Part shown: positions 6,985 to 29,034 of the stretch, piece after piece
Layout of the letters: each line of letters begins with the position of its first letter
Position numbering within the stretch: the stretch's first letter is position 1
Assembly (NCBI RefSeq): GCF_001545155.1
Contig: NZ_CP014226.1
Location: 1,772,191 to 1,836,190 of the forward strand
Reading direction: 5' to 3'
Source: Halomonas chromatireducens
Lineage (GTDB): Bacteria > Pseudomonadota > Gammaproteobacteria > Pseudomonadales > Halomonadaceae
Length of the DNA: 64,000 bases
Translations under genes and position numbers: made by a program
Notes under the pieces: generated by a model
Told to the model about the DNA's origin: nothing
The model's input: only the letters and a program-made list of their open reading frames with translations
The model's database searches: none

Positions 6985-6998
6985 TTGATAAGAATCAA
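6985..6998. promoter_or_regulatory. Perfect FNR/ANR-type box just upstream of nsrR
   Basis: TTGATaagaATCAA is a perfect dyad matching the FNR consensus. The centre lies about 30 bases before the nsrR ATG. That is too close for ordinary class II activation with a normal leader. Repression, or a very short or absent leader, is therefore implied. Confidence 0.8.
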
Positions 6999-24144: not shown

Positions 24145-24894
24145 TCACTCACGCAGCTCGATGTGCGCGAAATGGGGGGCGAGGCGCTTGACCAGCCCGG
24201 CGAGCATCGCCCGCGGCGGGGCGTTTTCCACCGGCTGGCAGTAGGCCGGGTCGAGGCACTGGTTGGTGCGCGCCACCTGAATGGCGTAGCGGCGCACACC
24301 GCAGTCGGCCAAGGTGAGTGCAAGGCGCTCCACCCCGGCCAGGTCGAAGTCGCGCCAATGCACGGTGGTGCGGCACTCGAAGGACACGCCGCTGTCGAGC
24401 AGCGTCATCAGGCTCTGGCTGTGACGCTGCCAGATGCCGGGTCGGCCGCAGATAAGGTCGAAGTCCCTTCCGCGGCCTTTCACGTCGAGCCCCACCCAGT
24501 CGAGATTCGGCAGCAGGCGCGAGAGCCGGCCCGGATAGGGGCCCGCGGTATGCAGCCCCACCTTGAAGCCCATCGCCTTTACTTCGCTGACGGCGGCCGG
24601 CAGGGCGTGGTGCAGGGTGGGTTCCCCGCCGCTGAACACCACCGCCTCGAGCAGCCCCCGGCGGCTCTCTAGAAACTCTCGCACCGCCTGCCACTCCTGT
24701 TCGTCGCCGCGGCGCGGCGCCATCATGTGGCCGTTGTGGCAGTAGCCGCAGCGCAGCGGGCAACCCTGAAGGAACACCACGCAGGCCAGGTGATCGGGAT
24801 AGTCCAGCGTGGTCATCTGGGTCAGGCCGGCGATGGGGAGCCGAATGCCATCGAGAGGCACAGGTGAGGATGAGTCGAGGTCGGTGGCGATCAT
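24145..24894 (-). CDS. nrdG: NrdG, activating enzyme of anaerobic ribonucleotide reductase
   Basis: A 249-residue radical SAM protein with CPLRCGYC (Cys45, Cys49, Cys52) and the downstream GGEPTLH motif. It creates the glycyl radical on NrdD using S-adenosylmethionine. AGGAG lies seven bases before ATG 24894, which fixes the start. It follows the small and large nrdD genes in the same leftward operon. It is the longer NrdG type found with NrdD in Pseudomonas-like bacteria rather than the 150-residue enterobacterial type. Confidence 0.93.
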   Translation of the reverse strand: MIATDLDSSSPVPLDGIRLPIAGLTQMTTLDYPDHLACVVFLQGCPLRCGYCHNGHMMAPRRGDEQEWQAVREFLESRRGLLEAVVFSGGEPTLHHALPAAVSEVKAMGFKVGLHTAGPYPGRLSRLLPNLDWVGLDVKGRGRDFDLICGRPGIWQRHSQSLMTLLDSGVSFECRTTVHWRDFDLAGVERLALTLADCGVRRYAIQVARTNQCLDPAYCQPVENAPPRAMLAGLVKRLAPHFAHIELRE

Positions 24895-24972
24895 CGAGGG
24901 CTCCTTTACCAAGCTGAAGGCTCTTGCCGGGCACGAAGCCCGGCAGTGTAGTGGATGCGTCAGCGCTCGGTA

Positions 24973-25137
24973 TCAGGGTGTGAGGGCGGCGGCCCGTTCG
25001 GTGAAGTGGCGGCGCTCGCGATGCTCGGAACGCTTGCCGACGTTGAACTGGCTGACCGGGCGGTGGTAGCCCATCACGCGGGTCCACACCTCGCAGCGCT
25101 GGCGTTGTTCGGTGGGCAGGGTGTCGATGTTCGTCAT
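24973..25137 (-). CDS. nrdD: Separate glycyl-radical C-terminal piece of NrdD
   Basis: A 54-residue protein whose core RCEVWTRVMGYHRPVSQFNV matches the glycyl-radical end of class III ribonucleotide reductases; the radical glycine should be Gly23 in VMGY. The large nrdD gene ends 49 bases upstream after its zinc-cysteine motif and lacks this loop. GGAAGGAG eleven bases before the ATG shows it is translated on its own. Two chains thus seem to form the active enzyme. A sequencing frameshift is unlikely because the gap holds stop codons, but assembly should be checked. Confidence 0.82.
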   Translation of the reverse strand: MTNIDTLPTEQRQRCEVWTRVMGYHRPVSQFNVGKRSEHRERRHFTERAAALTP

Positions 25138-25186
25138 CTTCTTGGCTCCTTCCAGTGGTGAATAAAATAGTGGGGTGAAAAAACGC

Positions 25187-26917
25187 TCAGGCCGGTATGG
25201 CCGCGGCGCGTCTTGCCAGCAGTGCTTCGTCGCACTTCGGGCAGAATTCGTGTTCGCCGGCCAGGTAGCCGTGCATCGGGCAGATCGAGAAGGTCGGCGT
25301 CAGGGTGATGTAGGGCAGGCGGAAGCGCGACAGGGCGGTACGCACCAGTTTACGGCAGGCGTCGGGACTGGAGAGCTTCTCGCGCATATAGAGGTGCAGC
25401 ACGGTGCCACCGGTATAGCGCGTCTGCAGCGGATCCTGGTGAATCAGCGCCTCGAAGGGGTCGTCGGTGTGCCCCACCGGCAGCTGGCTGGAATTGGTGT
25501 AGTAGGGCGCCTCGGGCGTGCCGGCCTGCAGAATGGCAGGAAAGCGCTCGGCGTCGGCGCGGGCGAAGCGGTAAGTGGTGCCCTCCGCCGGTGTCGCCTC
25601 CAGGTTGTAGAGATGCCCGGTCTCGGCCTGGAACTCCTGCATTCGCCCGCGTACGTGGTCGAGCACCTCCAGGGCAAGCTGGCGCCCCTCCGGGGTGGTG
25701 ATGTCGTAGCGGTCTTCCGAGAAGTTTCGCACCATCTCGTTGAGACCGTTCACACCCAGCGTGGAGAAGTGGTTGCGCAGGGTGCCCAGGTAGCGCTGGG
25801 TATAGGGATAGAGCCCCTCGTCCATCCACTGCTGGATGCACCCACGTTTGAGCTCCAGGCTGTCGCGGCCCAGTGCCAGCAGGCGGTCGAGGTCTTCGAG
25901 CAGGCCCGCCCGGTCACCGGCGAAGCGGTAGCCCAGCCGTGCGCAGTTGAGCGTCACCACCCCCAGCGAGCCGGTCTGCTCGGCGCTGCCGAACAGGCCG
26001 TTGCCGCGCTTGAGCAGCTCCGAGAGATCGAGCTGCAGGCGGCAGCACATGGAGCGCACCATGTGCGGCTCCAGGTCCGAGTTGAGGAAATTCTGGAAGT
26101 AGGGCAGGCCGTACTTGGCGGTCAGCGCGAACAGCCGCTCGGCGTTGTCGCTCTCCCAGTCGAAGTCGGTGGTGATGTTGTAGGTGGGGATGGGGAAGGT
26201 GAACACCCGCCCCTGGCGGTCGCCGGCCTCCATCACTTCCAGGTAGGCGCGGTTGATCAGGTCCATCTCCGCCTGCAGCTCGCCGTAGGTGAAGGGCTGC
26301 TCCTCGCCGCCGATGATCGGCACCTGATCGCGCAGGTCCGCCGGGCATACCCAGTCGAAGGTGAGGTTGGTGAAGGGCGTCTGGCTGCCCCAGCGCGACG
26401 GCACGTTGAGGTTGTAGATGAACTCCTGAACCGCCTGCTTCACTGCTTGATAGTCCAGCCCATCCTTGCGCACGTAGGGCGCGAGATACGTATCGAAGGA
26501 GCTGAAGGCCTGGGCGCCGGCCCACTCGTTCTGCAGGGTGCCGAGGAAGTTGACCATCTGCCCCAGGGCGCTGGAGAGATGGCGCGGTGGATCGCTCTCG
26601 GCGCGCCCGGGCACGCCGTTGAACCCCTCGATAAGCAGCTGGCGCAGCGACCAGCCGGCGCAGTAGCCGCACAGCATGTCGAGGTCGTGGATATGCAGGT
26701 CGCCCTCGCGGTGGGCGGCGCCAACCTCGACCGGGTAGACCTCGTCGAGCCAGTAGTTGGCGATCAGCTTGCCCGAGACGTTGAGGATCAACCCGCCCAG
26801 GGAGTAGCCCTGGTTGGCGTTGGCGTGCACGCGCCAGTCGGCGCGTTCGAGGTATTCGTTGACGGTCGAGGCGACGTCGATGCGGCGCGGGCCAGCCTGG
26901 CGGATGGGGGCGTTCAC
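25187..26917 (-). CDS. nrdD: NrdD, large chain of anaerobic (class III) ribonucleoside-triphosphate reductase
   Basis: A 576-residue class III reductase, which makes dNTPs anaerobically with formate or thioredoxin as reductant. Recognisable parts are GDLHIHDLD, FTNLTFD, the LGVVTLNCARLGY active-site region, and a C-terminal zinc motif (CPMHGYLAGEHEFCPKC). It stops soon after that motif, before the glycyl-radical loop that single-chain NrdD proteins carry; that loop is encoded at 24973-25137. The start is GTG at 26917 with AGGGAG upstream. An NrdR-type box precedes it. Confidence 0.92.
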   Translation of the reverse strand: MNAPIRQAGPRRIDVASTVNEYLERADWRVHANANQGYSLGGLILNVSGKLIANYWLDEVYPVEVGAAHREGDLHIHDLDMLCGYCAGWSLRQLLIEGFNGVPGRAESDPPRHLSSALGQMVNFLGTLQNEWAGAQAFSSFDTYLAPYVRKDGLDYQAVKQAVQEFIYNLNVPSRWGSQTPFTNLTFDWVCPADLRDQVPIIGGEEQPFTYGELQAEMDLINRAYLEVMEAGDRQGRVFTFPIPTYNITTDFDWESDNAERLFALTAKYGLPYFQNFLNSDLEPHMVRSMCCRLQLDLSELLKRGNGLFGSAEQTGSLGVVTLNCARLGYRFAGDRAGLLEDLDRLLALGRDSLELKRGCIQQWMDEGLYPYTQRYLGTLRNHFSTLGVNGLNEMVRNFSEDRYDITTPEGRQLALEVLDHVRGRMQEFQAETGHLYNLEATPAEGTTYRFARADAERFPAILQAGTPEAPYYTNSSQLPVGHTDDPFEALIHQDPLQTRYTGGTVLHLYMREKLSSPDACRKLVRTALSRFRLPYITLTPTFSICPMHGYLAGEHEFCPKCDEALLARRAAAIPA

Positions 26918-26956: not shown

Positions 26957-26972
26957 ACACAACATATGGTGT
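26957..26972. promoter_or_regulatory. NrdR-type box upstream of nrdD
   Basis: ACACaacatatgGTGT fits the 16-base NrdR consensus (acaCwAtATaTwGtgt) in both outer arms and most of the AT core. It lies 40 bases before the nrdD start. NrdR boxes usually come in pairs about three helical turns apart; only a poor second match is visible near 26922-26938. No comparable box was seen before nrdJa. Confidence 0.6.
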
Positions 26973-27107: not shown

Positions 27108-28025
27108 TTAGCCGGCAGGCAGGCGCGTGTTATCCATGCCCGGGCGGCCGTGCCAGTAGCCGTCGCAGACCTCCGCTTCGACCAGGGCCAGCGGGTCGGC
27201 GGCGGGCAGCTCGCCGCGGCGGGCGGCGTCGAAGGCGGCGGCGACTTCGGCCATGCCCCCTGCACGGGGGCCCAGGCGCGCTACGGCCACGCCCATCGCG
27301 GCCATGTCGCTCACCTCGTGGCGCAGGTCCTGGCAGGCGCCGGAAAGCGTCTGGATGCCGTTGAGGGTAAACACCTCCTTGGACTCCTGGGAGCGCAGCG
27401 GCAGGCCTTCGGGGTACTTCTGGCAGACGAACTGGCAGCGATCCTTGGGCTTCTGGTGACGCCGGGCGGTGAAGCAGCGCGACGACCAGGCCAGCGGAAG
27501 ATGGCCGTAGGCGAATACCTCGCAGGGCTGGTCCAGCCCCTCAGTGGCGCAATCGGTGAGCAGTCGGGCGAGATCGCTGCGCGACATCCCCACCGGCGCC
27601 TGCCAACGCTGCATGCCGGCACGGGCCATCACGCCGATGGAGGCCGGGTTGTAGAGATTCAGCGCAGCGCCGGCGACGAAGGGCAGGCCGGCGGCAGAGA
27701 GGCGCTGCAGCGCGCTCTGGTCATTGGCCTCGACGGTGAACTCGCCGTTGTCGCACAGCTTGCGCAGGTCGCGCAGGTCGGCCTCGGACTCGATCAGGGT
27801 CTGGCTGGCGATCACTACCTGCTTGCCGCTTTCGGTCAGCTCGCGGCCGATGCCGAGCCAGTCGTCGAGCTTCATGTCGCGGCGGCGCGAACAGACGGAC
27901 TCGCCGAGATAGACGATTTCCACCGGCCAGTCGGCGGCCTCGCGGTAGAAGTCGGCATAGTGCTCGCGGGTCCAGTAGAACAGCACCGGGCCCAGCGACA
28001 GCTGCAGGGTAGGGGAAGTCGACAT
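27108..28025 (-). CDS. ubiV: UbiV, iron-sulfur U32 protein of O2-independent ubiquinone hydroxylation
   Basis: A 305-residue peptidase-U32-like protein. Four cysteines (VCSRRRD near the N-terminus; SSRCFTARRHQKPKDRC and VC mid-protein) match the [4Fe-4S] ligands known for E. coli UbiV. With UbiU it hydroxylates ubiquinone precursors without O2, using prephenate as oxygen donor according to published work. ATG 28025 gives the usual MSTSPTLQLSLGPVLFYW start; it begins 13 bases after the ubiU stop. Confidence 0.93.
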   Translation of the reverse strand: MSTSPTLQLSLGPVLFYWTREHYADFYREAADWPVEIVYLGESVCSRRRDMKLDDWLGIGRELTESGKQVVIASQTLIESEADLRDLRKLCDNGEFTVEANDQSALQRLSAAGLPFVAGAALNLYNPASIGVMARAGMQRWQAPVGMSRSDLARLLTDCATEGLDQPCEVFAYGHLPLAWSSRCFTARRHQKPKDRCQFVCQKYPEGLPLRSQESKEVFTLNGIQTLSGACQDLRHEVSDMAAMGVAVARLGPRAGGMAEVAAAFDAARRGELPAADPLALVEAEVCDGYWHGRPGMDNTRLPAG

Positions 28026-28038
28026 GACGTATCTGCTC

Positions 28039-29034
28039 CTATTTCCAGCGGCGTTCGTAGGCGCCCAGGGTGGTGGTGGCACCTTCGGAGACCTCACCGA
28101 GGCCGGCCATCCAGGCGGGGTCGGGGTGGAAGCGCTCGGGGGCTCGCTCGAGGCGGTCCAGCGCCTGGCGCCAGATACCGGCCACCTTGGATACGTAGGC
28201 CGGGCTGCGCTGGCGGCCCTCGATCTTCACCGCGCTGATGCCGAGTTCGCGCAGCTCAGGGAGCAGCTCCAGGGTGTTGAGGCTGGTGGGCTCCTCGATG
28301 GCGTGATAGGTCTCGCCGCCCACCTCGAAGCGCCCCTTGCACAGGGTGGGATAGCCGGCCCGCTCACCCTCGCCGTAGCGGTCGATCAGCACGTTGTTGA
28401 GGCGCGACTCCAGCCCCTCGGGGGTCTCCTCCCAGCGCACGTGGGCCGCCGGAGAGCAGACGCCGCGGGTGTTGGGCGACTCGCCGGTGAGGTAGGAGGA
28501 GAGGTAGCAGCGCCCTTCGGCCATGATGCACAGGCTGCCGAAGGCGAATACCTCGAGCTCCACCGGGCTTTGCTTGGCCAGGTCGCGCACCTGGGTGATG
28601 GAAAGCACCCGCGGCAGCACGGCGCGCTTGATGCCGAAATGGTCGTGGTAGAAGCGCAGGGCCTCATGGCTGGTGGCCGAGCCCTGTACCGAAAGGTGAC
28701 GGGCGAGGTCGGGGCGGCGCCGTGCTGCGTAGTCGAGCAGGCCCATGTCGGCCATGATCAGGGCGTCGACGCCGAGGTCTGCAGCCTGGTCCACGGCGCG
28801 GGTCCACTGAGCCCAGCCGTCGGGTTGCGGATAGGTGTTGATGGCACAGAATACCCGCTTGCCGCGGGCGTGGGCGTAGTCGATGCCTTCGCGGGCACGC
28901 TTGTCGGTGAAGTTGAGGCCGGCGAACTGCCGGGCATTGGTGGAATTCTGGAAACCGAAGTAGACGGCATCGGCTCCTTCATCCACGGCTCGCTTCAGGG
29001 CCGGCAGGTTGCCGGCCGGGCAGACAAGCTCCAT
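28039..29034 (-). CDS. ubiU: UbiU, iron-sulfur U32 protein of O2-independent ubiquinone hydroxylation
   Basis: A 331-residue U32 protein beginning MELVCPAGNLPALKRAVDEGADAVYFG. Its cluster ligands are visible in FGSLCIMAEGRC, NTRGVCSP and PTLCKGRF. UbiU and UbiV form a heterodimer that works with UbiT (encoded at 12833) in anaerobic ubiquinone synthesis. It is the first gene of a two-gene operon and has an FNR-type box upstream. Confidence 0.94.
   Translation of the reverse strand: MELVCPAGNLPALKRAVDEGADAVYFGFQNSTNARQFAGLNFTDKRAREGIDYAHARGKRVFCAINTYPQPDGWAQWTRAVDQAADLGVDALIMADMGLLDYAARRRPDLARHLSVQGSATSHEALRFYHDHFGIKRAVLPRVLSITQVRDLAKQSPVELEVFAFGSLCIMAEGRCYLSSYLTGESPNTRGVCSPAAHVRWEETPEGLESRLNNVLIDRYGEGERAGYPTLCKGRFEVGGETYHAIEEPTSLNTLELLPELRELGISAVKIEGRQRSPAYVSKVAGIWRQALDRLERAPERFHPDPAWMAGLGEVSEGATTTLGAYERRWK

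Follow-up and report, generated by a model that had tools for sequence, protein, structure and literature searches.

The window analysed here, a 64,000-nucleotide stretch of Halomonas chromatireducens DNA (contig NZ_CP014226.1), encodes a class III ribonucleotide reductase, NrdD, whose predicted radical glycine is carried by a separate protein of 54 residues (Table 1). The existence of two separate chains is strongly supported by the sequences, and the two-chain arrangement is old and widespread, not local. We consider it very probable that the pair constitutes a two-chain class III reductase, in which the small chain would dock onto the large one, receive its radical from NrdG and be replaceable once cleaved by O2. 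An earlier note on this DNA had recognized the split, and that part of it stood; it had missed the age and breadth of the arrangement, as well as the solo travel of the small chain on mobile DNA.

On the minus strand, nrdD is followed by the small gene and then by an NrdG2-type nrdG. The 576-residue large chain has the C-terminus ...FSICPMHGYLAGEHEFCPKCDEALLARRAAAIPA*, and thus stops, as had been claimed, shortly after its zinc-cysteine motif (14 residues past CPKC). Neither a radical-loop motif nor a radical glycine was found anywhere in this chain. The loop is encoded by the 54-residue open reading frame (ORF) located 49 bases downstream, in a different frame from the large ORF and with an ATG and a GGAAGGAG site of its own; the coordinates of these parts agree with those previously given. 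A full-length NrdD elsewhere in the genome had been named as grounds for abandoning this interpretation. Neither such a gene nor a second NrdD was found in the whole single contig of 3.97 Mb, which likewise contains no copy of the small chain beyond that of the operon.

The two chains cover complementary parts of the Pfam NRDD family (PF13597, 562 positions), i.e. positions 2-531 in the case of the large chain (573.3 bits) and 531-562 in the case of the small chain (32.9 bits; cut-off 26.2). The large chain also matches TIGR02487 (441.4 bits; cut-off 326.35), while the product of the adjoining activase gene matches TIGR02495, NrdG2 (190.1 bits; cut-off 131.15). When both products were aligned to a single-chain NrdD, as the earlier note had advised, the large chain covered residues 105-612 of the Thermotoga maritima enzyme (4coi) and the small chain residues 610-645, a match that is weak by itself (E 1.5) and places Gly23 of the small chain on the RIVGY loop. 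The large chain lacks a radical glycine in a C-terminal loop of its own, and only the chain pair supplies one. When scanned against Pfam and NCBIfam, the small chain gave NrdD-type models only, and none of the pyruvate formate-lyase (PFL) type (GrcA). The finger-loop cysteine motif, defined as MCCR or MGCR according to PMC9669993 (section 9), is present in the large ORF of the window as SMCCRL, and C291 and C292 are invariant in a 27-row alignment. Compared with the single-chain NrdDs of T. maritima, T4 and Prevotella copri, the window enzyme has its radical loop as a separate gene product; it is also without an ATP-cone, none having been found in the window's NrdD.

Conservation, descent and co-occurrence of the two genes

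Within a set of 58 genomes, that of H. chromatireducens included, the reductase was split in all 14 loci of the genus whose C-terminus is intact (a number that includes the locus of the window and leaves out one further locus cut by a contig end), as well as in three loci belonging to different families of this order. Two more genomes of the order carry distant one-chain NrdDs. A larger collection of 134 loci, drawn from relatives and a class sample as well as from named genomes and plasmids, with a few repeats of one locus, contained 127 split and five fused entries (L019, L020, L021, L048, L049), one truncated entry and one for which no large gene lay in range; no fused form was present among the 80 named genome loci (L051-L130). 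The split arrangement spans alpha-, beta- and gammaproteobacteria. As the earlier note had guessed, small stand-alone proteins of this kind are already annotated, under the names 'anaerobic ribonucleoside-triphosphate reductase', 'oxidoreductase' or 'hypothetical protein'.

The gap between the two genes occurs in all three phases (48/47/25 over 120 distinct loci), which rules out a single shared frameshift. In these 120 loci, the distance from the stop codon to the loop motif varies from 31 to 470 bases, an ATG with a Shine-Dalgarno-like word precedes the small gene in 113 (according to a simple rule of our own making), and in 112 the small gene is followed by nrdG at a distance of up to 600 bases. 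Among 113 rule-assigned nrdG starts, 43 show overlap with the small gene, and 53 are at most 60 bases away from it. In genome G660 the small gene is placed beside an ORF read by eye as nrdG, with nrdD 9 kb away. Most of the small chains seen are about 44-90 residues long and have an NrdD-type loop, and eight comparisons revealed purifying selection on this chain (ratio of nonsynonymous to synonymous substitution rates, dN/dS, of about 0.07-0.35).

The arrangement is relevant to model systems as well. The NrdD of Cupriavidus necator H16 (pHG1; 676 residues, 76,191 Da) has no radical glycine and is accompanied by a small ORF of 66 residues; a mass of 76.2 kDa was reportedly given for this protein by Siedow in 1999. 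According to PMC2864759, nrdDG of C. necator is essential for complete denitrification, and NrdDG of C. metallidurans corresponds to Rmet_5137 and Rmet_5139, the one locus tag between them going unmentioned in that passage. Pseudomonas aeruginosa PA1920, described as a 76 kDa protein (PMC12284477) and adjoined in number by nrdG, PA1919 (PMC13086522), would likewise be the large chain.

Phylogenetic trees were constructed from 71 and 63 hand-picked rows, with duplicates removed, and rooted with one-chain NrdDs, including those of metagenome-assembled genomes of Cloacimonas, Marinimicrobia and ANME-1. In these quick trees, which contain many weak forks and in which long branches were flagged, all of the split enzymes formed a single group (SH-aLRT 88 and 83). 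Nested within it were three fused forms, i.e. those of genome G871 (Chromatiaceae family), of Acidiphilium plasmids and of an Actinomyces oris plasmid. Parsimony required four state changes, a pattern that fits one split followed by three re-fusions. Natural re-fusion is a usual sign of two proteins working as one, and the tree is thus an argument for a single enzyme composed of both chains. In the Acidiphilium and Actinomyces fusions, the small-chain signature CEVW is retained behind a longer linker. In total, fused plasmid records came from Acidiphilium cryptum, A. multivorum, Acidithiobacillus ferrooxidans (left out of the tree) and Actinomyces oris. The fused entry L230, from another class, was basal on a long branch, its placement being unsure. 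The supposition that homologues of at least 70% identity are never fused was rejected, given the four plasmid records and G871, and L208, called fused by a length rule, was dismissed since it contains no NrdD match.

The two genes occur together in nearly one-to-one fashion. In the class sample of 370 genomes, with fused enzymes counted as having both genes, 36 contained both, one gave a weak small match only, three had the large gene only and 330 had neither; the large gene was thus present in 36 of the 37 small-positive genomes. In the Chromatiaceae, the family to which Thiocapsa imhoffii belongs, the corresponding numbers for 57 genomes were 30, 0, 3 and 24, i.e. the large gene accompanied the small one in 30 of 30 cases (p 3.9e-13). 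Of the three large-only genomes, one has an NrdD reaching the contig end, another an NrdD ending about 140 bases before a contig end, and the third a fragment. Furthermore, 27 of the 29 plasmid records with the loop also carry the large gene. This co-occurrence, together with the complementary family coverage, the conservation across classes and the three re-fusions, bears out the original idea of a class III reductase whose radical glycine resides on a small protein.

Two variable features of the large chains were also observed. An ATP-cone is present in relatives, e.g. in the NrdD of C. necator and in L023, and may have been lost near the Halomonadaceae. Some gammaproteobacterial NrdDs carry an insert of about 300 residues near query residue 180; that of L046 (1-2694, genome G174) contains a LAGLIDADG domain and is probably an intein, and similar gaps were seen in the NrdDs of G420, G866, G873, G880 and G882.

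The small gene alone on mobile DNA

A scan of IMG/VR yielded 143 relatives, of which the best 80 loci, some of them near-duplicates, were retained. In 79 of these 80 there was no NrdD within up to 10 kb, and in none was nrdG present. A PF13597 search of whole records, performed for 50 of the 80 virus records, detected the loop without NrdD in 49. The exception, L313, encodes an NrdD lacking the glycine and a small gene about 2 kb apart. Portal, terminase, capsid and tail genes, along with many unknowns, occur among the neighbours of the viral loops (65 of about 135 candidates, mostly same-strand ones), and the best PHROG for all 10 scanned chains was phrog_4132, of unknown function. One virus record encodes Thivi_4421 of Thiocystis violascens; we read it as a Mu-like provirus, as backed by DUF935 and minor-head matches. 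The VIA list contained one-chain NrdDs, other glycyl-radical enzymes and class I reductases.

Extra copies were also found in bacterial genomes. G874 (Chromatiaceae family) has one copy beside NrdD and two within prophages holding capsid, tail, terminase and portal genes. The second copy of G293 lies in a module with YqaJ exonuclease, RecT, RadC and CobT-like genes and another ribonucleotide reductase gene, while one of the three copies of G793 is situated amid ORFs read by eye as ParA, DnaB and TopB. All three genomes possess the large chain. Plasmids pALVIN01 (Allochromatium vinosum) and pAt1 (A. tepidum) carry the loop and, at a threshold of at least 60% identity, no NrdD. Across 29 viral rows, the loop residues agree with those of the bacterial chain.

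Some of the phage-type small chains (L263 9890-10129, P0121-P0125, P0144) have a Cys-rich N-terminus, PCAHF...C..GR...C...C.AYLP, which may bind zinc in its own right. P0124, a second T. violascens protein, keeps this N-terminus and diverges directly after CEVW, as if the loop had been lost.

The locus and its surroundings

Table 1. Features of the nrdD locus of H. chromatireducens (positions within the window).
Feature	Position	Strand	Remark
Large chain, nrdD ORF	26917..25187	-	576 aa, GTG start
Large chain content: NrdD catalytic barrel, CPxH...CPxC zinc-type motif, MCCR finger loop	25187..26917	-	
Small chain, glycyl-radical loop CEVWTRVMGYHRPVSQFNVGK	25137..24973	-	54 aa
Codon of small-chain Gly23, predicted radical glycine	25069..25071	-	position counted from sequence
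Spacer between large and small ORFs	25138..25186	-	49 bases
Ribosome-binding site GGAAGGAG of small ORF	25153-25146	-	inside spacer
ATG start of small ORF	25137-25135	-	
nrdG2-type radical-SAM activase	24145..24912	-	TIGR02495 above cut-off
NrdR-box-like palindrome upstream of nrdD	26957..26972		2 mismatches to consensus

The NrdR-box-like palindrome is the sole match in the window, against 0.05 expected. Upstream of nrdD, on the same strand, lie ubiV and ubiU (27108-29034), of anaerobic ubiquinone synthesis, and a terminator-like hairpin (27074-27049), of a kind expected there by chance, separates them from nrdD. FNR/Anr-like boxes TTGATNNNNATCAA are enriched in the window, with 34 matches at up to 2 mismatches versus 8.7 expected and one perfect box at 6985-6998.

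Proposed mechanism, alternatives and implications

The large chain carries the catalytic barrel and the CxxH...CxxC zinc-type motif, and the 54-residue chain the radical loop only. In the mechanism that we propose, the small chain would dock at the site taken by the C-terminal end of a one-chain NrdD. By analogy with one-chain NrdD, NrdG, encoded by the next gene, would put the radical on Gly23, and the loop would then generate a thiyl radical at a finger-loop cysteine of the large chain. With the MCCR motif and a conserved Glu, the reductant could be formate or thioredoxin (PMC9669993, section 9), and the Glu of NLEATPAE may be the equivalent of that residue. Class III enzymes are cleaved by O2 at the glycyl radical (PMC3019208); the loss caused by air would therefore be confined to the cheap 54-residue chain, and a fresh copy of it could dock onto the surviving large chain after exposure. 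The solo copies on mobile DNA would most likely serve the large chain of the host as spare or additional radical chains. We infer the docking, the activation by NrdG, the replacement after O2 and the benefit to the mobile element.

Several observations weigh against this interpretation. All of the evidence is at the sequence level, and the AlphaFold model was made from one read-through chain. The well-supported branches of the trees, taken alone, force just two state changes, and the re-fusions imply that the split is not indispensable. The virus records are often fragments, none being rated 90% complete, and an NrdD may be encoded elsewhere in those viruses. No stand-alone loop was found in annotated isolated phages (two weak matches in 50,697 records, both at NrdD), and the search pattern itself had partly selected for the WTRVMGY stretch seen in the viral rows.

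A close known parallel is provided by the PFL spare parts YfiD/Y06I (GrcA), likewise small stand-alone glycyl-radical proteins that complete a large radical enzyme. According to PMC8683613, YfiD repairs PFL, one spare part is phage-encoded, and such parts have been validated for PFL only, with the question raised for other radical enzymes. However, in the present case the enzyme is NrdD and the loop is of the NrdD type; moreover, YfiD backs up an enzyme that retains its own glycine, whereas the large chain of the split clade has none. The small chain would act like a spare part at most. The split class II reductase NrdJa/NrdJb of P. aeruginosa is also encoded by two genes, the second of which carries a C-terminal functional segment (PMC5704485 and PMC9669993), but that enzyme is B12-dependent and its second chain carries a Cys-rich turnover domain and no radical site. 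In a literature search we met no account of a split class III enzyme or of an NrdD loop carried by phages, although earlier notice is possible (the phage reductase survey PMC3653736, Siedow 1999 on C. necator nrdDG, the N. bacilliformis NrdD paper).

The chances seem to us evenly balanced that the radical is an exchangeable cartridge, and that phages, integrative elements and plasmids of bacteria with the split enzyme carry such cartridges, some of them extended by a Cys-rich domain, so as to drive the Gly-less large chain of the host during infection or once oxygen has destroyed the host's own. A less probable but serious competitor accepts the two-chain enzyme and assigns the phage and plasmid loops a role other than replacement after O2 damage, in which they block or compete with the host enzyme, or are structural. 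The Cys-rich N-terminus added in some phage versions, their location among structural genes and the lost loop of P0124 would suit such a role, whereas the agreement of loop residues in the 29 viral rows (partly search-selected at WTRVMGY) and the presence of the large chain in all three genomes with extra copies speak against it. Somewhat more doubtful is the idea that the split regulates the activase step and has no part in repair, the free small chain being the preferred substrate of NrdG and being delivered pre-activated. The 43 overlaps among 113 nrdG starts, and the small gene of G660, which stays beside an nrdG-like ORF when away from nrdD, are consistent with this; on the other hand, a free radical chain would be open to quenching, and YfiD, as a related spare part, is a poor substrate when free and is best activated when bound (PMC8683613).

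In comparison, it is very improbable that stop read-through or programmed frameshifting links the two ORFs into one working chain in the cell. The small gene is in the same frame at 25 of the 120 loci (behind a single stop at 19), but the occurrence of all three phases, the variable stop-to-motif distance, the ATG and ribosome-binding word at 113 loci, and the genes separated by 9 kb in G660 and by about 2 kb in L313 led us to reject this. Least probable of all is a sequencing error or a decayed, non-functional nrdD: recurrence of the split in all intact same-genus loci and in many families, with purifying selection on the small chain, refutes it within the limits of sequence data.

The radical residue is where O2 destroys glycyl-radical enzymes, and a large proteobacterial clade has made a separate radical part its normal design. 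Since the C. necator NrdD has no radical glycine, assays or clones with nrdD and nrdG that omit the 66-residue ORF would be without the radical. The system opens questions of radical-chain swapping, of the access of NrdG to the glycine and of a phage chain running a bacterial enzyme. Anaerobic DNA synthesis can depend on NrdD, and if mobile elements do carry its radical chain to their hosts, what is exchanged would be single radical subunits, not whole enzymes.
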